Part shown: piece after piece, positions 1 through 25,182 of the stretch | Position numbering within the stretch: position 1 is the first letter of the stretch | Layout of the letters: every line of letters starts with the position of its first letter | Assembly: GCA_002787775.1 (NCBI GenBank) | Contig: PCUW01000054.1 | Coordinates: 67,099-131,098, forward strand | DNA: 64,000 bases | Reading direction: 5' to 3' | DNA from: Bdellovibrionales bacterium CG12_big_fil_rev_8_21_14_0_65_38_15 | GTDB taxonomy: Bacteria; Bdellovibrionota; Bacteriovoracia; Bacteriovoracales; Bacteriovoracaceae | Program-made: the position numbers and the translations under genes | The notes under the pieces: generated by a model | Databases searched by the model: none | Told to the model about the DNA's origin: nothing | What the model saw: the letters and a program-made list of their open reading frames with translations, nothing else

Positions 1-1001
1 CATCTAATGAAATTCAAGGTGCCCTGGCAGAGTTTTCAAACTCTTCAGGTATTGCAAAGGCCTTCGCTGACTATGAAGACGAAGTTGTCTTCGGTGGAAA
101 TCGTGGTGTAGCGTTTAACCAATTTGTACGAGAAGCTACGATTGAAGCTGGTGCCCTTGCTTCATCTTTTCCAGAAAAAATCTGGAGTGGACCTCTTAAA
201 GAAAGAGTTACCCTGCTTCAGCAAAAATTTCCACAAATGATGAAGAAAATGGAAGGCGTATCTTTTTCTTACAATAACTCTAGTGGTGGAAGTAGAGACA
301 TCTTCGTTGTAAGTCTTAAAGATCTATCACAACAACAAAAAGAAGCTTTCTTTAAAGAGTATTATGAAGCTGTATCTGAAAATACTGTTTCATTTCCTCT
401 TTCAAGTGGTGCAGGTCACCTTTACACAAGACTTGGAAATAAGACCTATGACTTCCTTTCAGGCTTAAGTGCTAGGGCTTATCCATTACCAAGCTCGAAG
501 CGTCTTGAAACATTCATGGAGCTTGAACCTGATGAATTTATGCGTCTTCGCCTTTATGTAGAAAACGGAACCGAAAACTCTCAAAAAACAATTGGTGGCT
601 TTGGCTACCAAGGTGTAGAGCGTGAAACGGTTGGTATGCTTAACGATAACCGTCCAGGTAGCGTTAATCCAAATCCGCCAAATCGCTTTCAACAAATTAT
701 CAATCGCGTACTTAATAGAGGTGATGGAACTTATACACCAACTGGCGAAGCTCATAACTGTACAAGTTGGCTTTGTACCGCTCCTATTGGCGACAATGGT
801 GAAGCCATTCACGATTTGGCTGGCGCGCCTAGATCACACCGCATACACACTAACCCAGGTTGGTGGACAAGCTGGCTAGTGAACTATGGAAAACGTGATC
901 GTATGCCATTTGCTTTTTACTTTACTGATGAAGGCTTAGAAGAAGCAACATCAAGTATTGGACAAGCTGGTAAGTTAGATTGGAATTTTGATACTCACTA
1001 A
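1..1001 (+). CDS. C-terminal part of an exported protein with a permuted papain-like domain (5' end outside window)
   Basis: The reading frame is open from base 3, so this is the 3' part of a longer gene. It aligns along its whole visible length with the last third of the next gene, including the AEFxN and KIWSGP segments near the start, so it is a tandem paralogue. The visible domain carries a GHLYTRLG block and, about 110 residues later, HNCTSW and an IHTNPGWWTSW block. A His-strand followed much later by an N-C-T/S motif is the order seen in circularly permuted NlpC/P60 (LRAT/DUF4105-like) cysteine hydrolases; that assignment is my inference from motif order. The ATG at 237 is internal and not a start. 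The stop at 999-1001 touches the ribosome binding site of the next gene, so the two are probably cotranscribed. Confidence 0.6.
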   Translation, partial: SNEIQGALAEFSNSSGIAKAFADYEDEVVFGGNRGVAFNQFVREATIEAGALASSFPEKIWSGPLKERVTLLQQKFPQMMKKMEGVSFSYNNSSGGSRDIFVVSLKDLSQQQKEAFFKEYYEAVSENTVSFPLSSGAGHLYTRLGNKTYDFLSGLSARAYPLPSSKRLETFMELEPDEFMRLRLYVENGTENSQKTIGGFGYQGVERETVGMLNDNRPGSVNPNPPNRFQQIINRVLNRGDGTYTPTGEAHNCTSWLCTAPIGDNGEAIHDLAGAPRSHRIHTNPGWWTSWLVNYGKRDRMPFAFYFTDEGLEEATSSIGQAGKLDWNFDTH

Positions 1002-1019
1002 TTGCTAGGGAGAATGCCC

Positions 1020-3302
1020 GTGAGGCTTATAGAAATATCACTTTTTTCGTTTTTGCTTATCTTTCCAAGCATAGTTTTTTGGAACGATAGTCAAATACAC
1101 TCAAGTCGTAATCCGGCAAACTTTGCAAGTTCAAGCTGTAAGGATCTAATTGAATCACTTTCAGACATTAATGTCAGTGGATCAAAAAAGATTGTTAGAG
1201 CTTCTTTTGGATTTGATAGTGCAGCCATCTCTGAAGGCAAGCATCTTCAATTTGGCTTCGAAGCTGAGTACACCCTTCAAGAAATTGATAAGATTGTTAC
1301 CATATACGGCCCAAAGCCTGGCTTTGGTATGTCAAAAGATCGTTGGTTTACACTTTCAGTAAAAGATAGAGCTGATTGGGTTAGAAATAATATTGAACGA
1401 TTATTTCCAGAACCAAGAAAGCCAGGTGGACTGGTTAAATTAAAAGATCAAGCTGGTTATAAATTCCTTCCAGAATCACTCATTCAAGATGATACAGGAA
1501 ATCTTGAATTCGTTTTAGATCCATTTAATAGTTATGAAGAATGGTATCGTTCGATCAAGAAACTTAATACTAAGTTTGGAGAGGGGTCGATGCAGGCAAC
1601 GATTTCGGTGCCTCCTGAAAGCTTCTTTGGCCAGGCCGCAAATATTTCAGAAGATCTTGCTGTTAAAGAAAAAATCGGCTTGTTTAATTTTTACTCTGAA
1701 TACGACATCCTTCAAAAACTAAATGCAGGTCACCTTCGCTACGAACAAGATCCTGAGCGCTTAGTTGCAAGAAACTTTGAGCATCCTTTTTTAGGACCAA
1801 TGACTTCAGCGAAACAACGCCAACTTAATCAAATGCTTAGAGCAAATGCTCATGGCGATAAGTTTGATGACGCTTCTTTAGAAGTCATCTCAGGTTTAGA
1901 AAATTCATTTAAATACACTGGTGGAACAGTTTACCGTCCAGATATTTTAGGACAAGAACGAATTGTTCTTGAAGTGCGCGATGCTCACAAGAACTTCACC
2001 CTTCTATCAGATCGTCTGCTACGTTCTCTATATTTCATGCAACATGGAACAGGTGGACTTGATGAACTTGCTTCGCTTAAAAGCTTTCATCTAGATAATG
2101 ATTTTGCCAAGCTACCAAAAAATGTTCGCGATGAATTAAAAAGACTTTTCCCAAATAAAGCCAATCCTCAATATACCTATACAGCAGCTGAAAAGAAGGC
2201 TTTGGATATCTTTAAAAACTTTGCCTATCCTATGCGTGACTGGGGTGAACATCTGGAAGCGATCAAGGCAACGAGTATCGCTAATAAAGTTCAACAGGCT
2301 CAAGATGCCTACGTGGCTAAGCTATCTGACATAACTGCGAGAATGCGAAGTGGAGCTATAGACGATCAGCACGCTAAAGCTGAAATCCAAGGTGCTCTTG
2401 CAGAATTTGCTAACAAATCAAAACTTGCCAAAGCTTTTGAGGACTATGAAGAAAATGTTATTTTCACAGCAGAACGTGGCTCCTCAATAGATTCGGTCAT
2501 AAGAGAAATCTCTATTTCTTCTGGTCCACTTAAAGAATCTTTTCCTTCAAAAATTTGGAGTGGCCCTATTAATGAAAGAATGGCGCAGCTTCAGTCTAAG
2601 CATCCAACCATTCTTAAAAAGGTTGAAAAAGTTAAATTCAAATTTAACAATGAACCAGGTGGTCGCCGTGATGTTTATATCGTTAGCCTTAAAGGTTTGA
2701 GCGATAATCAAAAGAAAGCTTTTTTTGATGATTACTTTGCAGCTACTTCTGAAAATACAGTTTCGTTTCCAATGTCTAGCGGCGGTGGACATCTTTACAC
2801 ACGAGTCGGAGACAAATCATTCAATTTCTACTTCAGTTCTGATGTCGACATGGATGCTTATCCAATCCCAAGTTCGGATCGACTAGAGACATTTCTTGAA
2901 CTTGAATCAGATGAGTTTCTTCGTCTACGTAAGTATGTTGATAACGGAGTTAATGATGGCGATAAATTGTTAGGAGACTCTGGTTATGATGGTGTTACAG
3001 GAAATACCAGAAACACACTAACAAATAACCGTCCAACTTCAAGCTCCCAATCTCACAACTGTACAAGCTGGCTATGTACGGCGCCAGTTGGTGACGGCGG
3101 CGAAGCTATTCACGATATTGCCGGAGCTCCAAGAACTCATAATATTCATACCAATCCAGGTTGGTGGACGAGCTGGTTAGCCAATTACGCTCCGCGTGAG
3201 CGCGTGCCATTTGTTTTCTACTTCACTGAAGACTCAATGGCCCAAGCAACTCAAAAGGTTAGCGGCGCTCAAACGTTTGACTGGAATTTTAGTACCCATT
3301 AA
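1020..3302 (+). CDS. Exported two-domain protein: amidoligase/GCS-like N-terminus plus permuted papain-like C-terminus (tandem paralogue)
   Basis: About 760 residues. The start is taken as GTG 1020, because AGGGAGA at 1007-1013 is well spaced for it; ATG 1014 in the same frame is possible. A hydrophobic N-terminus (RLIEISLFSFLLIFPSIVF) suggests export or a membrane anchor. The N-terminal half has FGFEAEY near residue 80, a NLEFVLDPF strand near 165, QATISVP near 195 and ERIVLEVRDAHKN near 315; this order of acidic strands resembles the carboxylate-amine ligase (glutamine-synthetase/GCS/amidoligase) fold. The C-terminal 180 residues repeat the preceding gene, with GGGHLYTRVG (His near 591) and HNCTSWLC (Cys near 681), fitting a permuted NlpC/P60-like cysteine hydrolase. 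Domain calls are from motif reading only. Exported ATP-dependent ligases are unusual, so the N-terminal domain could be a non-catalytic relative. Confidence 0.6.
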   Translation: MRLIEISLFSFLLIFPSIVFWNDSQIHSSRNPANFASSSCKDLIESLSDINVSGSKKIVRASFGFDSAAISEGKHLQFGFEAEYTLQEIDKIVTIYGPKPGFGMSKDRWFTLSVKDRADWVRNNIERLFPEPRKPGGLVKLKDQAGYKFLPESLIQDDTGNLEFVLDPFNSYEEWYRSIKKLNTKFGEGSMQATISVPPESFFGQAANISEDLAVKEKIGLFNFYSEYDILQKLNAGHLRYEQDPERLVARNFEHPFLGPMTSAKQRQLNQMLRANAHGDKFDDASLEVISGLENSFKYTGGTVYRPDILGQERIVLEVRDAHKNFTLLSDRLLRSLYFMQHGTGGLDELASLKSFHLDNDFAKLPKNVRDELKRLFPNKANPQYTYTAAEKKALDIFKNFAYPMRDWGEHLEAIKATSIANKVQQAQDAYVAKLSDITARMRSGAIDDQHAKAEIQGALAEFANKSKLAKAFEDYEENVIFTAERGSSIDSVIREISISSGPLKESFPSKIWSGPINERMAQLQSKHPTILKKVEKVKFKFNNEPGGRRDVYIVSLKGLSDNQKKAFFDDYFAATSENTVSFPMSSGGGHLYTRVGDKSFNFYFSSDVDMDAYPIPSSDRLETFLELESDEFLRLRKYVDNGVNDGDKLLGDSGYDGVTGNTRNTLTNNRPTSSSQSHNCTSWLCTAPVGDGGEAIHDIAGAPRTHNIHTNPGWWTSWLANYAPRERVPFVFYFTEDSMAQATQKVSGAQTFDWNFSTH

Positions 3303-3383: not shown

Positions 3384-4367
3384 ATGCGCTTGGAAATTTG
3401 CCTTTTCGTGATCTTAGCGTGCTCATGCGCCCTATCCGCGGAAAAGACTATGCTCAAAACAAATTTTGATAACCTTGAAGTTGGTGTTGCCACTGACCCT
3501 GCTGGGCCTACTGGCACAACTGTCATCTACTTTCCAAAAGGTGCTATTGCCGCCATGGATTCACGTGGTGGTGCTGTGGCCGTGCGTGAAGGTTCATCGA
3601 TTGACGAAAATAATACTTGGGGTTGGCTCGATGCTATCACTCTTTCAGGTGGCTCTACATTTGGACTTGAAGCTGCTGATGGCGTAGCCGCAGAAATATT
3701 AAAACTTCGTGGTGGTAAAGTTAAATTTGAAACTATCCCTTCTGTCCCTGCTGCTATTGTTTATGATTTTACCGGTAGAGATACATCTGTTTATCCCGAC
3801 AAAGCTTTAGGCGCGAAAGCCTTCAATGCCAGAGAAAAAAATAAAGTTCCCTACGGCCGCGTTGGTGGTGGAACTCATGTCAGCGTTGGAAAATGGTTCG
3901 ATGAACTTAAACCAGAAAAATCCGGACAAGGTGCTGCCTACTTCGAGAAGAATGGAATTAAAGTTCTAGTTATTACAGTGGTCAACGCTGTCGGCAATAT
4001 TCTTAATGAACAAGGAAAAATTATCAAGGGAAGTCTTGATGAGAAAACAGGTAAACGTATTAATATTTTCGATCGAGTTAAAGAGAAGATCGAAAGTACT
4101 CCAACGAAAGGAAATACTACAATCACTGCTGTCATCACAAATGTTAAGTTTGATCGCCTAGCTCTTAAGAGGCTTGCCATTATGGCCCATACTTCTATGG
4201 CAAGAGTTATTGATCCGTTTCATACACCTTGGGATGGCGATGTTTTATTTGCTGTTTCGACAAGAGAGATGGAAAAACCCGAAAAATTCGAAGAAGCAAA
4301 TTTAGGCGTCATAGCAGCTGATCTATTAAGAACAGCTGTATGGCGTGCTGTTGGCGAAATAGAGTAA
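3384..4367 (+). CDS. P1 family (DmpA/BapA-type, S58) aminopeptidase, exported
   Basis: The 327-residue product has the P1/DmpA hallmarks: GATDP-like VGVATDPAGPTGTTV near the start, SGGSTFGLEAADGV, GRVGGGTHVSVGKW, then NTTITAVITNVKF and HTPWDGDVLFAVST. In this family the protein cleaves itself before a Ser or Thr in the NTT region to expose an N-terminal nucleophile; here Thr in NTT would serve (family knowledge). These enzymes release N-terminal D- or L-amino acids or beta-peptides. The first 19 residues are a signal peptide; ILAC at residues 10-13 also allows a lipoprotein reading. The start ATG 3384 follows GGGAGG at 3371-3376. The gene stands alone, and its stop abuts the stop of the convergent gene. 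Export suggests scavenging of peptides outside the cytoplasm. Confidence 0.85.
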   Translation: MRLEICLFVILACSCALSAEKTMLKTNFDNLEVGVATDPAGPTGTTVIYFPKGAIAAMDSRGGAVAVREGSSIDENNTWGWLDAITLSGGSTFGLEAADGVAAEILKLRGGKVKFETIPSVPAAIVYDFTGRDTSVYPDKALGAKAFNAREKNKVPYGRVGGGTHVSVGKWFDELKPEKSGQGAAYFEKNGIKVLVITVVNAVGNILNEQGKIIKGSLDEKTGKRINIFDRVKEKIESTPTKGNTTITAVITNVKFDRLALKRLAIMAHTSMARVIDPFHTPWDGDVLFAVSTREMEKPEKFEEANLGVIAADLLRTAVWRAVGEIE

Positions 4368-15327: not shown

Positions 15328-18300
15328 TCAATTTTCCGATTGGGCTTCGCGTAATAATGCTTCAAATCGAGTTTTATGGATATTTTCTTGGTAACGACTG
15401 ACATTCTTACCCAACATCTTAGGAAGTAATACATATCGACCATAATACTCGATAGCCTTTTTTCCTGAAGGAGTGTCACGTAAAACTTCCCAATCAAAAT
15501 CCCCTGTATCGTAGAACAACCACTTTGTGATTCCCCACTTAGAGCGAGATTGCTTCGTTAAATACTCTTGGGCCATCTCACGGACAAAGCGCTCAGCAAA
15601 TCCTCCAGCGGTATTATCTGCTAAAATTCTTCCAGCGATGGCCTGGTCTACAGCTGCACGGTTAGTTGCTGAAGGAACACGACCAGTCACTCGAGGTAAG
15701 AATTCATTTTGCATAATAAGATCAAGAGCTGCTCTTCCTTCTCTATTATGAACATTAAATATTCTTCTAAAATCATAAGATGAAGTCATGCGATGACTTA
15801 GACTTTTAAGAGAATCATATTTAGCTTCAATTTCGCGTAACTTCGTTTTTTGATCACTTGATAAATAATTTGCATCTCGACCAGTTATCCATGCAAAGAA
15901 GCCTGAGTTACTATCTCTAACCTCTTGCCAAAAATCTGCAACTTCACGGTCGTACATTGATGATAAAAACGCTTTAAAATTCTCATCCGTATTTTTAGCA
16001 ACATGAGCAAGTGCCATATGATCAGCTAGCTGACTCTCACTAAAAAATCGTCCTAATTCTTGAAGCGGAACTGGTTGATCAGAGTCTACAACCCATTGAA
16101 GCGCGTCTTTGAGTTCTTCCTTAAAGACAGCAAGCTCTGTTTTCATACCATCCATATCAAAAACGAAGCCCTGTGAAATATACAGTCCCATACCTTCAAT
16201 GAATCGAGCGAGAGCCTGAACTGTAAACTCTGAAGTCACAATATCGGAACCTGGACCGTCGCCAGCGATAGTGCGATATTCATTTTTTGCTTGAACACTT
16301 AATAATAGTTGCGCAAGTTCAACATCAATAACCTCTTGAAGAATTTGATTTTGAACCGCACTAAGATTTGGACTTAAGCGACTAAATAAATTTGGAACAG
16401 AGGATATTAAGTAAGATCTAAATCCAGTCGCTAGAGTTTGGTTAAAGTTGTTGGCACAACCCCCTAAGTCAGTCATTAAACTATCAAACTTAGCTTCATC
16501 GACTTGACTTAGATCATCAAGATACCCATGAAGAACCGTACGATCAGATTCTTTAAAGCGTTGATCAAAGTTTTCATTAGGGAACATTAGAGAAATTAAA
16601 CTTCCTGCACCAACTAGGGAATTGCTGGCGCTAATAATGTCGTCTAAAGGCCTAGACTGGCCGACTGATGTCACAGCTGAGAATTGGGGTTTAAACCATT
16701 TTACATCTCTGTCACTGACGATGGTCTTGAGTTTATCAGAAAAACAAGCCATCTGAGAATTAAGAGCTGTCTTATCAGAGTTTGTTAAAACCGGATTATA
16801 TTTTTGTTGTAGCTTTTCAAAAAGATTGGAGGCGATATCAATCTTTGTGACTGCAGAACAAGACTTTAACCAAAGTCTATATTCTTCTACAGTCTTGTTT
16901 CCTAAAGCATCACCATCTCTATAACACTTATCAAGATAATAAAGTGGACTTAGGATTTCATTTGCTTCAATAGAAGATAATGGAAATCTTTTTGAAACAA
17001 AGTTTTTCATTTGTTGAAGAACTAATTGGAATTGTTCTTGCGCCAAAGATTCCTTGTCACAATGAATACCAAAATCTAATACGTCGGATGAAGAGTTGGC
17101 ATCATAGTCTTTCCAGCAATCTTCATATTGTTTTGAAATATCAGTAACGACTTGCTCAAATGACTCATCTTTAAAGTCATCTTTTAAGCTTGAAACAAGT
17201 TCGTACATTCTTGGTTGGATATGAGCTCGCATCACGATGTCATTAAAAGCTGTCTTGACACCATCGACACCTCTCGTTGTCAAAGCACGACGTAAATAGG
17301 CAGCACTTCCTTCAAGTAGATCATAAGTCCCTGGTTCAGTAATTGCAGCTAAATTGTCTCTAACTTCCTCATGTGCTGCAACTTCGTAAGCTGGATTTTC
17401 ACCATTCGTTGGGAGTTTAGAGTTAAGACGAGAATCAACGAAGCCAGAAAAAGCTGTTGAGTATGCCATCACTGATGCTTGTTCTACAAATTTTTTGGCA
17501 TCTGCAACGCTCTGTATTTGTGGCACAGAGTTTTGCATAAAACTTTCTACAGTTTCAATAGGCGATGTTAAATGATAGTTCGCCAGCTGGTTCTCATAAA
17601 AATGACTCGTAAGAGAAGAAATCTTTGTTTTAAAATAATCAAAGCTACAACGATATCTCCACTCATCAACACTTGTAAAATTCTGGGTTTCAATGCGTGT
17701 TAGGTTTTCACTTATACATGAATTGACTGAAATATTGTCCTGCTCATTAAAACGAACATCACCAAGACCAGAATCTCTGGCAATTGACTCAAGCATTTTT
17801 GATGGTAAGAGTGATATAGACTTTGAGATCAATTCACGCTGACAAGCTGAAAACTCAGCATCCTCTAAACAATCATCAAAATCTTTAACCAAAGCTTCCC
17901 GTTTAACATTTTGATTAACAATCGAATCATTAAACCATTTAATGTAGTTTAGCTTGTAGATTTCAGCTTTAGCTTTTTGAATTGCAACTAGCTCACAATT
18001 TTCGCTGTCGCAATCACGAAAGGTCTGGATGGCCAGTTCAGTTATTCTTGTACTTATTGGCGCAAAGGATTCATCCTGTCTTAAAAAACTTTGTTGCACT
18101 AATCCCGCTAGTTCAAGGCGAAGTGAATTCTCAATCAACCTTCCTTCACACTGTTTCAATTTTGAGTAGTCGTTAGACGCTATATACTCATCATTAAAGC
18201 TACGTTGTTCAACAGAACCAATAATAGCTCCACTTTCAATGAGACAGCTTCTAAAATCTTTTTGTTTTGTTTCATCTGAAGCGTAAGATAGATCCGCCAT

Positions 18301-19389
18301 TTCAAGACCAGTTCTAAAGAGACAGTTTTGAGTTAGCTGAGAGTCTGAACCAGCAGTTGATAACTCACGTCGAAGAACAAAGGCCTCAGATAGACATGAA
18401 TCGTATACGTTTTGTACTCGCGCATTTAAGGTATTTAATCCAAGGGCTTGATGTCCAAAAGGAAGATCGGTTATTTTTTGCTTTAAAGTTTCTACTTCTA
18501 AAGACGGTATATAAAGATTCATCTGAGCATTTCTAACCACAGGTCTGTGTTCAATAGAGATCGAAGTCAAATGAACAGCTCCAACTCTCTCCCTTGCAAC
18601 TCGATCTGAGCTTGCAATAATAGTAGCTTTTAAGTTTCGGTCCTCAGATCCCAGTTTGATATGAGTTCTTGATTCTGTTTCCAGACCATCGCGACCAAGA
18701 GTGTAAATACTAACGAGCTCGTTTTTCATTCCATGGTTTTTAATTTTTATAATTTGTTTACCGTCATGAGTTGATAAAATAAAAGTGTCATCATTTCTTT
18801 CAACCTTGAAATCTTTTAAACTTCCGCCGCCTTGGGAAAGACTTAATTTAACTGGATGTCCCTGACTATCAATCAAAGCGCGCAGTTGAATTTTTCCAAC
18901 ATTGGGAACAGTGACTTCGAAAAGCTCAACACTTCTTTCAAAATCACCCTCTCCACGAATACCAGCTGATATTCTGTTAAATTCTGAAGCCAGGTCTTCA
19001 ATGACTCTAGTATCCGAACTTAATTCCTCTCCAAGGTGAATAGCCTGACAATTCGTAGTGCTCACAAACTTGAATTCTTCGAAGATTGTAATTACCGATT
19101 CAATATTTTCACTACTTACACCTTGTGCCTGCAATGAAGAAGTCGCTTTGGCGATATGCCCATCTATATTTATTGGGTTTGATAAATCAAATGTTTCTGA
19201 AAAGAATGAACGCCTTTGTCCATTTCGAATCAGTTCGATTTCAATTTTTTTTGCGCCTCTTTTATAATTAAGCTCTAGTTTTTTACCGTCAAAAGGTATT
19301 GATAAAAGCGTATCTTCCGCCCAAGACATGGACGCAAATAAAATAAGACTTAAAATAATAAGTTTCTTTATTGGCTGAATCATCAACAT
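15328..19389 (-). CDS. Giant exported cysteine-containing helical protein, unknown function (1353 aa)
   Basis: The product begins with a signal peptide (PIKKLIILSLILFASMSWA); the start may be the ATG at 19389 or the one at 19383. The first 300 residues look beta-rich, and the rest mostly alpha-helical. Cysteines recur in the middle third in a repeated context: DSCLSEAF, QNCLFRTG, RSCLIESG, KQCEGRLIEN, RDCDSENC, DDCLEDAEFSACQREL, NSCISENL, YRCSFDYF. This looks like a helical repeat array held by disulfides, outside the cytoplasm. No catalytic motif or known domain was recognised, and no membrane segment after the signal. It stands alone, with about 200 bases before the DNase I-like gene start, and the same strand as the next giant gene. 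Confidence 0.75.
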   Translation of the reverse strand: MLMIQPIKKLIILSLILFASMSWAEDTLLSIPFDGKKLELNYKRGAKKIEIELIRNGQRRSFFSETFDLSNPINIDGHIAKATSSLQAQGVSSENIESVITIFEEFKFVSTTNCQAIHLGEELSSDTRVIEDLASEFNRISAGIRGEGDFERSVELFEVTVPNVGKIQLRALIDSQGHPVKLSLSQGGGSLKDFKVERNDDTFILSTHDGKQIIKIKNHGMKNELVSIYTLGRDGLETESRTHIKLGSEDRNLKATIIASSDRVARERVGAVHLTSISIEHRPVVRNAQMNLYIPSLEVETLKQKITDLPFGHQALGLNTLNARVQNVYDSCLSEAFVLRRELSTAGSDSQLTQNCLFRTGLEMADLSYASDETKQKDFRSCLIESGAIIGSVEQRSFNDEYIASNDYSKLKQCEGRLIENSLRLELAGLVQQSFLRQDESFAPISTRITELAIQTFRDCDSENCELVAIQKAKAEIYKLNYIKWFNDSIVNQNVKREALVKDFDDCLEDAEFSACQRELISKSISLLPSKMLESIARDSGLGDVRFNEQDNISVNSCISENLTRIETQNFTSVDEWRYRCSFDYFKTKISSLTSHFYENQLANYHLTSPIETVESFMQNSVPQIQSVADAKKFVEQASVMAYSTAFSGFVDSRLNSKLPTNGENPAYEVAAHEEVRDNLAAITEPGTYDLLEGSAAYLRRALTTRGVDGVKTAFNDIVMRAHIQPRMYELVSSLKDDFKDESFEQVVTDISKQYEDCWKDYDANSSSDVLDFGIHCDKESLAQEQFQLVLQQMKNFVSKRFPLSSIEANEILSPLYYLDKCYRDGDALGNKTVEEYRLWLKSCSAVTKIDIASNLFEKLQQKYNPVLTNSDKTALNSQMACFSDKLKTIVSDRDVKWFKPQFSAVTSVGQSRPLDDIISASNSLVGAGSLISLMFPNENFDQRFKESDRTVLHGYLDDLSQVDEAKFDSLMTDLGGCANNFNQTLATGFRSYLISSVPNLFSRLSPNLSAVQNQILQEVIDVELAQLLLSVQAKNEYRTIAGDGPGSDIVTSEFTVQALARFIEGMGLYISQGFVFDMDGMKTELAVFKEELKDALQWVVDSDQPVPLQELGRFFSESQLADHMALAHVAKNTDENFKAFLSSMYDREVADFWQEVRDSNSGFFAWITGRDANYLSSDQKTKLREIEAKYDSLKSLSHRMTSSYDFRRIFNVHNREGRAALDLIMQNEFLPRVTGRVPSATNRAAVDQAIAGRILADNTAGGFAERFVREMAQEYLTKQSRSKWGITKWLFYDTGDFDWEVLRDTPSGKKAIEYYGRYVLLPKMLGKNVSRYQENIHKTRFEALLREAQSEN

Positions 19390-20541: not shown

Positions 20542-23500
20542 TTAGAATATTTGAATGACACCTGGATCTCTTTTAATCGTTAGAACCTTTAGAGCCGCTA
20601 AGTATCGATCAAAATCATCCGCATCGCTATAGTTAGAAAGCTGAATCGCTACTTTATGAGCAAATTCACCAAGCTCACTTAACTTAAAGACCTCTTCAGT
20701 TTTTAATGCTTCCCAAAGAACACTTCCTAGAGCTTCCTCGTCAACATTTGCTGGTGCGAAGATAATACGTTCTAACGTCGCTTTGTCGAAGTTCGTAGCA
20801 GCTGAAAGTTGGTGACGGAATTTATAAGAACGAATACCACCCTCTCTTAGCTTTTCTTCGAGAGTCTGTACGATCTTAGTACGAACACCAGTCAACTCTT
20901 GAGTTAGTCTAGTCGCTTCACTACTAGATGCTTTATCAATAGCGTGAGCAACAGATTGCTCAAACCCTCTAAATACATTAAGTGAAGTCTCGGCAGCAAC
21001 GTAAGGAGTTATTCCAAGTGCTACTCGAGCTTCAGCTCTTAAGCTTTCATAAACAAGACGTGCTCTTGCATTAAATAATTGTTTTAAAATCATCCCATCA
21101 CTAACTGCACCAATAAATGGTAGTCTTCTTGTTACATATGGCATTAGGTAATGGTATCCACCTTCTAAGAAGAATAGGTATGGAAGTTCACGTTTTCTCA
21201 TTGGAACCTTAATTAGAACTTCTGTAAGATCTTCCATATTGGCCTTAACAAATTGTTCAAGGTCTCCACCATTTTTAACGATTTGTTCAAGACCTTCTTC
21301 AAGACCACGGATTCTTGTCGCATTGGCAGCTAAATGGGCCACACGCATTTTCTTAATACCGTTAACCATTTTTCCCACAAGTGGAATTCTGGCAACAAAC
21401 CCCTTACCTGCTTCAATACGCTCCATTGAACGAACAGCATTAGTAAGACGACGACCTGAATAACTCTTAATCAGTCGTAATAAGCCGTTAGGGTTATGAC
21501 CAAAGTATTGTGAAACCATTTTCGCCGTTTGATTATCAATCTGCCCCTTAGTTTCACTTACTACTACTCTGCCCATAGCACCATCAGCTGCTTCTAAAGC
21601 ATTGCCGAGCATTGACTTAAATTTACCTAAAATCTCACTAACTTTCTTGGCCATAAGGCTTGCTGAGATTTTTCCACGGCGATGAAGGAATGTAACTTTA
21701 CGAATATCGTCAACACCTGTTTTTAATTGTGCTGGAGTAACTCCGCGCTTTAAAAGATCATCAGTTAATTCACTAAGTTCACGAGCACCAGATTGAGCTA
21801 GCTCATCAACGCTTCTTAGGCCTGCATCTCTAAGACGACCAAAGCCTAGAACGTATTTAGCAAGACGAACATCAGCTTCTTGGACTGCTGTTTTAGCAGC
21901 TTGTCTAAAGGCAATTTTACCTGTTCCTCTAACAATATGTTTGGCTGAAGTTAAAACAAGTTTCGATCCTAATCCAACAGATCGCCCAACAATACCTATT
22001 AAAGGAAAGACACTGATTGCTTCAATCGCCGTCCATGCCCAACCACGAGAAACAGAATCATTACTACCGTAGTCAGCAAAACCTAGATCTTCCATTAGTT
22101 TGACTTGTCTTTGATATTCATTAGCATCTTGTTTTCTATCGTATTCACGTTTGATCAATGTTACTTGCATGCCCATGGCCGAAGTACCGGCAGCAATCAT
22201 GGCAACACCAAGTGGAGCACACAAACCGCCAGTGATACCAGTACAAGCGGCACCAATCATAATGGCTGCCATACCAAGAAGACCCGCACCAAGACCAAGC
22301 CATAGGTCTTTCCACTCGTCATCTGACATACTATTAATTTTATCAAGAACGTTTTCTGGAACTCCAGGCAAGCCCCCAAGTGCATTAACTTGGTTTTGAG
22401 CTTTTGTCGTTGCATAGAATAACGCTTTCATATCTTCGTGCTTATTTGGTTCCATATTACAGAACTCTTGCATACGTGTTTTTACTTCACGAGCACGTGT
22501 TCTTGCGGCTTCTCTAACCATTGATTTATAGATTGGACGCTTAAGTTCATTATCAAGTGATAAGAAATTAAGCTTTGCCATAAAAGTATTATCAATACCT
22601 TCAGCGGCTGAGAAATCATTAAAGAGTGCTTGCTGTTCTTGAGGCTTACCTTTTAATTCGTAAAGGCGCATAAAGAATTCGCCAAGTTTAGCCTCATCAC
22701 TTTCAAAAACTGAATCAATTTGTTTTTCAGCGCGATCATCAATACGGTGCCCCGAGCGATCAACAAAGTTATCCACGCCATCACGGCTAAGAAGTGTTTG
22801 ATAAGAAACGCCTTGCAGCTTTGAGTAAAGATCTTTTCCGCCAGTCTTAACACTAAAGAGCTGAGAGTTTCCTTCATCAGCTGTTTGTACAACACTTTGC
22901 CAGAAAGATTCTTTTTCAGATGTAGAAAGAACTGAGTTTCCAAAGTTAGGAGATAATGAACGATTTAAACCAAGTGTCTTAGAAGCCTTGTCGAATTTAC
23001 CAATAATTGTATCGACATTGCTGTAGAAACATTGGCTTCTTGAGCTGTATGGAGACATTCTATCGCGAGCAGAATAATACACTTGGTATTCTGGCTCATG
23101 ACCTTCTCTATAAGCATTCAGTTCTTCTTTAGCTACAAGATAGCTTAAACGAAGTTTGGCCCATGGATTAAGCGCTTCCATTTGATCTGAAATAAAGTCG
23201 TATTCATTAGTTTTAGCTTCACTTAAAAGATCCGTTCTTGAAAGTAGGCCACTCCAAAGTGATTTTAAAAGAGGGTAAACTTCAGCAAGTTTAGATTCTT
23301 CTAATCTTCTTAAAGGAACATACTCACCGTCTTGATCGAACTCAGAAAGGTAATCAAGTAAGTTTTGAACAGTCTTTTTAGCATCATTTCTAACGCAAAC
23401 TTTTGCTTTTGATGATTCAAGAGCGATTTCATTGATACCTGGAATATGGTGCTGAGAATAGTTTACACTTCTAGCACAACGATCAAGAATCATGCTTTCA

Positions 23501-25182
23501 AATGCTTGACCCTGGCCTGCTTTTAAAGCATTTGATAATTGTTTTAATCCCCACTGTCTCCAAACACTGGCACCATAAAGATTTGGAAGTGGCAGCTGAA
23601 TTTTAGTTGCCTTAAGTTTAGTTTCTAATGACTTTGAGATGATTTCTTGAAAGTGAGTTGCACCTTTCTTTTGCATAAGTTCTGCAAGATAAAGACTCAA
23701 ATTTTGACGTTGTGGCTCCAATGGAATTTTCTCTCCATTAACTTCAACTTCATAAAGCTCATACGGACTTGGATCAGCAACGATTTTTTCAAAAAGTTGT
23801 TTACCGTTATAAGTATATGAACGGGAGTCGCGAAGTCCAAACCATGAGAATGTGCTGCCGTGGAATTCATCCATTGCCTCTGGAAGCTTAAACTGCATCA
23901 CTCTTTCAAAATGAGTAATATCATCGATATCTGGAGTTAAGCCACTGACACGACTTTGTTCTAAACCTTTTTGTGCGTAAAGAACTTCTTCAAATGGCAT
24001 AAGACCAGAGTAGCCGCTCTTTGTCGGATCCTTAGAAGCATTCTCCATATAGTATTCAATAAACTGATAGTTTGATGGCGAGAATGTTAAGCCATGATTT
24101 GCTAACATATTATCAAGAAACTCTTCGCCTTGACCTTCAACAAAGTCAAACTTCATTTCTGAGGGAAGATCTCCATTGAAATGATTTTGACATGAGCGTG
24201 GAATCTCAATACTTTTAGATCCACTTTCTTGCATACTTTCATATACGTATAATTGAGACATCATCATATGTAGAGTCATCAGTTTTAATGCTCTTACATA
24301 GTTTAGAGTTGATGGTGCTTTCATTAGTGTTAAAACATCACGAGAAAGAACTGAGTTCATATCAATGCGAACTTGAGAGCGACCAAAAGAGCGATCTTCA
24401 ATTGAAAAATGATATGGATCAACTGATGGGTTTGGCCCAAGTTTTAAGCGCTCACGACCTTGAAGATCATCTCCAGGAAATAAACGTGTCGGAAATTCCG
24501 GTAGTAGCGATTGATAAAACCATGCGCCGTCATATTCACCTGGGAAGTAAGCACGACGAGCAACGACTAGGTCGCGCATTGGAAGAGTTACACTTCCAAG
24601 GAAAGTAATAAGCATCTCTTGTAGTTCTTCTTCATCAGCATCGCGATCAACTAACCACTTGCGAACTTCACGCATTAGAAATTCGGCTTCTTGGTGAGTT
24701 TTTCTAAGTTCTACATCATCAAGGCGAAGAACTGGACGTCGACGTTCATCACGTTCGCGCTTCATAATATCTTCAGCTAGCTTATCAAGCATACCTGGAG
24801 TTTTCTTTGGTAAACATTCTTCGTCATTAGAAGCTGCAGGAGCTGTTGCATCCCACTGTCTTGCATATTGTCCACAACTATTCGTTTTCATCTCTGAAAG
24901 AAGCTCATCAAAATCTCTTAGACCAGTATTTTCTGCTGCAGAAGTAAAAGGACGATCACTTTCAAAAAGAGCTGGCTCATTATCAGGACAATGTGATGTA
25001 TCTTCTTTACCTTTAATTTTAACTTTAAATGCTTCGATACGATCACGAAGCTGCTCGAGGTTTAGCTCATGAATTTCAGCTGGGTAGCGTGAAATATTCT
25101 GCGCAGTCTCAGCAAAAGCCAGCTGAAAGCTCGCAATGAAGATGATGAATGCGGTTAATACTCTTTTCAGACCCATGGTCAT
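20542..25182 (-). CDS. Giant exported protein with internal hydrophobic hairpin, unknown function (1546 aa)
   Basis: Start ATG 25182 follows AGGGGAG. A signal peptide (LKRVLTAFIIFIASFQLAFA) is followed by about 900 charged, largely helical residues. Around residues 955-1010 a strongly hydrophobic Gly/Ala-rich stretch (LWLGLGAGLLGMAAIMIG, then GLCAPLGVAMIAAGTSAMGM) looks like a membrane-inserting hairpin, with a further hydrophobic segment (AIEAISVFPLIGIVGRSVGLG) about 60 residues later. The last 450 residues are basic, helical and may be a separate domain. No enzymatic motif was recognised. The plan of signal peptide, long helical body, amphipathic hairpin and C-terminal domain resembles toxin-like proteins that insert into membranes, but this is only an analogy. 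Confidence 0.75.
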   Translation of the reverse strand: MTMGLKRVLTAFIIFIASFQLAFAETAQNISRYPAEIHELNLEQLRDRIEAFKVKIKGKEDTSHCPDNEPALFESDRPFTSAAENTGLRDFDELLSEMKTNSCGQYARQWDATAPAASNDEECLPKKTPGMLDKLAEDIMKRERDERRRPVLRLDDVELRKTHQEAEFLMREVRKWLVDRDADEEELQEMLITFLGSVTLPMRDLVVARRAYFPGEYDGAWFYQSLLPEFPTRLFPGDDLQGRERLKLGPNPSVDPYHFSIEDRSFGRSQVRIDMNSVLSRDVLTLMKAPSTLNYVRALKLMTLHMMMSQLYVYESMQESGSKSIEIPRSCQNHFNGDLPSEMKFDFVEGQGEEFLDNMLANHGLTFSPSNYQFIEYYMENASKDPTKSGYSGLMPFEEVLYAQKGLEQSRVSGLTPDIDDITHFERVMQFKLPEAMDEFHGSTFSWFGLRDSRSYTYNGKQLFEKIVADPSPYELYEVEVNGEKIPLEPQRQNLSLYLAELMQKKGATHFQEIISKSLETKLKATKIQLPLPNLYGASVWRQWGLKQLSNALKAGQGQAFESMILDRCARSVNYSQHHIPGINEIALESSKAKVCVRNDAKKTVQNLLDYLSEFDQDGEYVPLRRLEESKLAEVYPLLKSLWSGLLSRTDLLSEAKTNEYDFISDQMEALNPWAKLRLSYLVAKEELNAYREGHEPEYQVYYSARDRMSPYSSRSQCFYSNVDTIIGKFDKASKTLGLNRSLSPNFGNSVLSTSEKESFWQSVVQTADEGNSQLFSVKTGGKDLYSKLQGVSYQTLLSRDGVDNFVDRSGHRIDDRAEKQIDSVFESDEAKLGEFFMRLYELKGKPQEQQALFNDFSAAEGIDNTFMAKLNFLSLDNELKRPIYKSMVREAARTRAREVKTRMQEFCNMEPNKHEDMKALFYATTKAQNQVNALGGLPGVPENVLDKINSMSDDEWKDLWLGLGAGLLGMAAIMIGAACTGITGGLCAPLGVAMIAAGTSAMGMQVTLIKREYDRKQDANEYQRQVKLMEDLGFADYGSNDSVSRGWAWTAIEAISVFPLIGIVGRSVGLGSKLVLTSAKHIVRGTGKIAFRQAAKTAVQEADVRLAKYVLGFGRLRDAGLRSVDELAQSGARELSELTDDLLKRGVTPAQLKTGVDDIRKVTFLHRRGKISASLMAKKVSEILGKFKSMLGNALEAADGAMGRVVVSETKGQIDNQTAKMVSQYFGHNPNGLLRLIKSYSGRRLTNAVRSMERIEAGKGFVARIPLVGKMVNGIKKMRVAHLAANATRIRGLEEGLEQIVKNGGDLEQFVKANMEDLTEVLIKVPMRKRELPYLFFLEGGYHYLMPYVTRRLPFIGAVSDGMILKQLFNARARLVYESLRAEARVALGITPYVAAETSLNVFRGFEQSVAHAIDKASSSEATRLTQELTGVRTKIVQTLEEKLREGGIRSYKFRHQLSAATNFDKATLERIIFAPANVDEEALGSVLWEALKTEEVFKLSELGEFAHKVAIQLSNYSDADDFDRYLAALKVLTIKRDPGVIQIF

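Follow-up and report, generated by a model that had tools for sequence, protein, structure and literature searches.

What can a bacterium do with a protein that joins a domain of amide-bond-making type to one of amide-bond-breaking type? This question is raised by two tandem genes at the start of the window analysed here (64,000 nucleotides of contig PCUW01000054.1 from Bdellovibrionales bacterium CG12_big_fil_rev_8_21_14_0_65_38_15), in a member of the Bdellovibrionota, a phylum known for bacteria that prey on others.

The second gene (copy 2) is complete within the window. Its true start is most likely the GTG at 1020, as judged from the sequence; this codon was preferred because both it and its ribosome-binding site are conserved in a congener (L016). 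The first in-frame start, TTG 1002, which lies six residues upstream, was dropped in its favour. In the resulting 760-aa protein, all of the motifs and catalytic candidates quoted in a first-pass annotation of this DNA were found in place: FGFEAEY, NLEFVLDPF, QATISVP and ERIVLEVRDAHKN start at residues 78, 161, 192 and 313, respectively, and His591 and Cys681 are also where they had been reported (Table 1).

The window edge truncates the first gene (copy 1). The full gene (L001:10734-13100) begins 1366 bases before the window, and its 788-aa product carries the N-terminal domain (N-domain) as well as the C-terminal domain (C-domain), so its architecture is the same as that of copy 2. This agrees with the earlier suggestion that the two proteins share their second domain, since copy 1 has the equivalent residues His595 and Cys709. 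The two copies are 58% identical overall, compared with 80-85% for orthologues, and the congener retains both of them, together with the S58 peptidase gene that follows the pair. The dN values relative to the congener are only 0.11 and 0.15 for the two copies, with dS saturated. Moreover, in a tree of fusions with the same type of C-domain (type A, see below) the single protein of genome G081 groups with copy 1, and the duplication therefore predates that split. The duplication is thus old, and both active sites have been retained in both copies, whose roles may have diverged, as was suggested earlier.

Table 1. Features of the tandem genes and the adjoining peptidase gene, in window coordinates
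Feature	Position	Strand	Remark
Copy 1, C-terminal 332 residues inside the window	3..1001	+	window edge cuts gene
Copy 1, C-terminal His-box/NC domain, type A (predicted)	78..998	+	
Copy 1, His595 codon (GAGHLYTRLG)	417..419	+	
Copy 1, Cys709 codon (HNCTSW)	759..761	+	
Copy 2, ribosome-binding site GGGAG (Shine-Dalgarno)	1008..1012	+	ggag...GTG kept in congener L016
Copy 2, two-domain protein, 760 aa, GTG start	1020..3302	+	enclosing ORF 1002-3302
Copy 2, N-terminal hydrophobic segment (signal peptide or anchor), MRLIEISLFSFLLIFPSIVFWN	1020..1085	+	hydropathy 2.51
Copy 2, N-domain, predicted glutamine-synthetase/GCS-like carboxylate-amine ligase fold	1230..2450 (residues 71-477)	+	
Copy 2, E81-x-E83 motif (ExE)	1260..1268	+	both glutamates in 39/39 sequences covering the motif
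Copy 2, E163 of GNLEFVLDP	1506..1508	+	41/41 aligned sequences; on GCS2 E by hhalign
Copy 2, Q192 of SMQATIS, place of GCS HVHVG motif	1593..1595	+	41/41; aligned to GCS2
Copy 2, R306 of YRPD	1935..1937	+	41/41
Copy 2, E318-x-R320 of LEVRDAH	1971..1979	+	41/41; aligned to GCS2
Copy 2, C-domain, predicted His-box/NC domain of permuted NlpC/P60 kind	2451..3299	+	residues 478-760; C-domain model fold search negative
Copy 2, His591 codon (GGGHLYTRVG)	2790..2792	+	
Copy 2, Cys681 codon (HNCTSW)	3060..3062	+	just ahead of predicted helix
Peptidase_S58 (DmpA-like) gene, hydrophobic N-terminus	3384..4367	+	Pfam E 4e-27

Neither the N-domain nor the C-domain is covered by a model in Pfam or NCBIfam. 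A profile built from five N-domains was used to search 369 Bdellovibrionota genomes, and the family was found in about 42 of them (43 matched; the G140 sequence, which resembles a RelA/SpoT-type protein, is probably a false match and was set aside). A search of phage and plasmid records revealed no N-domain homologue.

The alignment of 41 N-domain sequences revealed, in addition to the invariant residues listed in Table 1, a lysine or arginine at residue 298, so that the GS/GCS-type set is complete in this family and occurs in the family order (ExE, E, Q, K/R, R, ExR). The invariant residues follow the active-site order of GCS and glutamine synthetase, and presumably have the metal- and ATP-binding roles known from those families. 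In an hhalign comparison of the N-domain with the GCS2 proteins that related genomes encode, E163, Q192 and E318-x-R320 fell on the GCS2 motifs LEIE, HVHV and EVR. These shallow alignments were scored by column shuffles and the hhalign percentages were set aside, because the positive controls themselves scored low. The N-domain-GCS2 comparison gave a z of 6.5 above the shuffles, yet an hhalign probability of only 5.6-5.9%; the positive control pair (Amidoligase_2-GCS2) gave a z of 9.9, and the negative pair a z of 0.5.

An AlphaFold2 model built from ten sequences had a pLDDT of 70.8, the N-domain being its best part. The top PDB matches of this model in Foldseek were two hits to GshF (E 0.031 and 0.062), followed lower in the list by E. 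coli GCS, McsB and arginine kinase, which belong to one fold superfamily with GshF. The E values ranged from 0.03 to 2, the structures superposed poorly, and none of the N-domain matches was significant (E < 0.001). PDB sequence searches with N-domain profiles gave chance matches only, and a search with PF12224 (Amidoligase_2) found no match in the source genome or in the fusion protein. The proposal of a ligase-like domain is thus borne out by the invariant residues in GCS order and by the alignment of the GCS2 motifs, but not by a proven fold. We consider it highly probable that the N-domain is of the GCS type, with a fold that is supported rather than proven.

The N-domain resembles glutamate-cysteine ligases (GCS2) and GshF in the order of the ExE, E, HVHV-like strand and ExR elements, as well as in its best Foldseek matches; it differs from them in that no family model matches it, and in its glutamine in place of histidine, its predicted export and its fusion to a cysteine domain. 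With the Amidoligase_2 family (PF12224; one of the amidoligases of Iyer et al. 2009) it shares an FGxExE motif, and true Amidoligase_2 genes adjoin the family member of G158, whereas the profile similarity is weak (z 4.8) and PF12224 leaves the source genome without a match. PafA and Dop are alike in the GS fold (predicted in our case), a likeness by fold and not by sequence comparison, and they differ in being cytoplasmic and in acting on Pup.

In the C-domain of the window proteins, a His motif is followed by an NC motif, whose cysteine precedes helix 207-214 of the C-domain model. Three C-domain subfamilies were found in association with the N-domain. Type A, to which the window copies belong, is fused to it in eight genomes and has its own gene beside that of the N-domain in G311; fusions of type B occur in ten genomes and adjacent genes in five; and type C genes, which are longer and show the same motif order (HTPxQGTL, SCTHW), lie at most 6 kb from the N-domain in five genomes. 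The profiles of types A and C match each other (hhalign 97%, P 1.6e-11), and in types A and B, which retrieve each other, it is the His box that matches (P 4e-4 to 1e-3, z 8.4). The type B profile, in turn, matched picornaviral H-box/NC 2A proteins in the PDB (7zua, 8a2g and 8a2f; E 8.4e-4), and the alignment brings the two motifs together in the same order. The type A profile of the window had no direct match among solved structures and is linked to them only via types B and C.

Another link is provided by N-domain homologues that are fused, on either side, to Pfam Lnb_N (G344, E 5.9e-6; G189, E 2.6e-4, below the cut-off). This family (Lnb_N/DUF4105, PF13387) has the motif order FGHxxLR then NC, and DUF4105 is listed among papain-like families (PMC10318531); the window copies score below any Pfam threshold for it. 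LRAT/H-rev107 and the H-box/NC 2A proteins share with the C-domain the His box followed by the NC motif, but the matches come from the sister type B and not from type A of the window, and the fusion partners differ.

For the C-domain model, type B rows were trimmed to their His half, because whole-domain alignment of types A and B misplaced the Cys segment. The AlphaFold2 model obtained (pTM 0.81, with a low-confidence Cys segment of pLDDT below 62) was compared by Foldseek with the PDB and BFVD. No papain fold was retrieved, and the earlier expectation that structure prediction and fold search would reveal one in the window C-domain was not confirmed. The idea of a permuted papain-like domain is nevertheless favoured by the type B matches and the Lnb_N fusions, and the assignment is held as likely, through relatives, but not more firmly, because the model of the window domain matches no papain fold.

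The pairing of the two domains recurs across the Bdellovibrionota, as far as can be judged from their sequences: about 30 of 42 genomes have the N-domain and the cysteine domain either in one gene or in genes that adjoin or lie close together, and in about 12 N-domain genomes the partner was not detected. Strong type A matches occur in nine genomes, in all of which the N-domain is fused or adjacent (Fisher P 2e-9, with related genomes treated as independent); for type B this is the case in 15 of 18 genomes (Fisher P 8e-13, with the same treatment of related genomes as independent). The fused cysteine domain of G351 has lost both His and Cys (its motifs are ERNLALRLG and HNGTTW), while the ligase-type motifs are kept, and two intact type C genes adjoin the fused gene. 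This loss beside intact genes is in keeping with a common function that another gene can provide in trans, and the two domains are probably functionally coupled. The two-domain architecture appears to be undescribed in the literature searched, which did not include the Iyer 2009 amidoligase survey.

Two other gene arrangements were also observed: four tandem type C genes followed by a ligase gene and a nitrilase gene (L072:64-5587), and a row of three genes, for an N-domain protein, a type B protein and a GCS2-looking ligase (L224:1-2978, G074).

In a hydropathy scan, about 39 of 44 N-domain ORFs, like most of their partners, had a hydrophobic N-terminus, and several carried a lipobox. G311 differs: no signal segment is present in its ligase, its cysteine protein or the ATP-grasp-like neighbour. 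The claim that both domains reside in a single exported chain is upheld to this extent, by hydropathy, for most family members, and the tandem proteins are very probably carried across the inner membrane.

The neighbouring genes encode mostly exported amide-bond enzymes (S58 peptidases, nitrilases, Amidoligase_2 and an ATP-grasp-like protein). Within about 6 kb, S58 peptidases recur at 8 loci and two nitrilase groups at 7 and 5 loci, and the S58 gene beside the fused gene is conserved in G001 and G081. In G158, four same-strand genes overlap or abut: an ATP-grasp-like gene (identified by weak Pfam matches), an Amidoligase_2 gene (E 1.4e-17), the fused ligase-cysteine gene and a gene for an 817-aa protein without a family.

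Several further genes were noted during this survey. A conserved exported protein of 817-819 aa, of no known family, overlaps or abuts the fused gene at L063:2700-5153 and L064:8016-10475. A CN_hydrolase nitrilase with a signal segment is encoded 8 kb upstream of copy 1 (L001:2448-3338), and in other genomes nitrilases of its group come immediately after the ligase gene. Elsewhere in the Bdellovibrionota (L133, L139, L141), apparently exported proteins of ~750 aa consist of Amidoligase_2 fused to an R2K-type ATP-grasp, and Amidoligase_2 proteins with lipoprotein-like N-termini occur at L138, L151, L153 and L154. The window itself also encodes proteins of 1353 and 1546 aa (at 15328-19389 and 20542-25182, respectively), both very large and with no Pfam match.

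Our analysis has demonstrated, at the level of sequence, the two-domain chain, its conserved residue sets, the recurrent pairing and the neighbourhood. The explanation that in our opinion best accounts for them is that each protein brings two amide-bond active sites, in one chain, across the inner membrane; as a whole, this reading of a paired amide-bond enzyme outside the cytoplasm is plausible, but falls somewhat short of probable. The cysteine domain (Cys-His, H-box/NC) would act on a substrate of the cell envelope or of prey and cleave in it a peptide, isopeptide or similar amide. On the same substrate the N-domain, of predicted GS/GCS fold and with its metal- and phosphate-binding residues intact, would make a second amide or, like Dop, break it with nucleotide help. 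The S58 peptidase and nitrilases encoded nearby may process the products. This specific amide-editing mechanism is put forward tentatively.

An ordinary ligase would need ATP, which is not expected outside the cytoplasm, and the missing ATP is the main difficulty for a ligase-like enzyme in this location. Two ways round it can be envisaged. Dop, a GS-fold enzyme turned hydrolase, cuts an amide using ADP and phosphate that are reused over many cycles (PMC7947786), which makes a nucleotide-assisted hydrolase one of them; delivery into prey is the other.

The latter leads to an alternative in which the N-domain is a true ATP-dependent amidoligase that works where ATP is present, e.g. in the prey cytoplasm or a lysing prey cell, and tags or cross-links prey molecules that the cysteine domain trims. 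The invariance of all ligase-type residues, the exported Amidoligase_2 and ATP-grasp-like genes of the G158 operon, the exported Amidoligase_2-R2K fusions and the G311 proteins without a signal segment are consistent with such a role. The lipobox of several family members, however, suggests anchoring in the predator's own envelope, and both predation by these organisms and delivery into prey are assumed; we regard this alternative as unlikely. Somewhat less likely still is that the GCS-like domain is a substrate-binding relic, the cysteine domain alone acting as an envelope amidase or transamidase. The unexpectedness of ATP, the precedent of Dop and the glutamine in place of the usual histidine of the HVHV-like motif would suit a relic, but in 41 sequences the acidic and basic residues of the active site are fully conserved, which exceeds what binding requires, and in G351 it is the cysteine domain that is dead and the ligase-like residues that are kept. 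Finally, it is improbable that the C-domain is not papain-like and that its His and Cys form a disulfide, a metal site or part of a different fold: cysteines of exported proteins often serve disulfides and the C-domain model (pTM 0.81) yielded no papain-like structure, but the H-box/NC matches of the type B relative, the Lnb_N fusions of N-domain homologues, the disappearance of His together with Cys in G351 and the position of Cys at the beginning of a model helix argue against it.

To conclude, a paired amide-bond enzyme acting outside the cytoplasm remains our preferred reading. It is conceivable, though rather doubtful, that the Bdellovibrionota run an extracytoplasmic amide-ligation system acting on prey or surface molecules, in which unrelated ATP-dependent ligase folds (the GCS-like family, Amidoligase_2 and ATP-grasp) are exported with amide-cleaving cysteine, S58 and nitrilase enzymes. 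If the N-domain is active outside the cytoplasm, the source of ATP or other energy becomes the question, and the present gene family is one in which it can be tested. That a fold for making bonds and one for breaking them share a single chain directs attention to substrates in the envelope or in prey.
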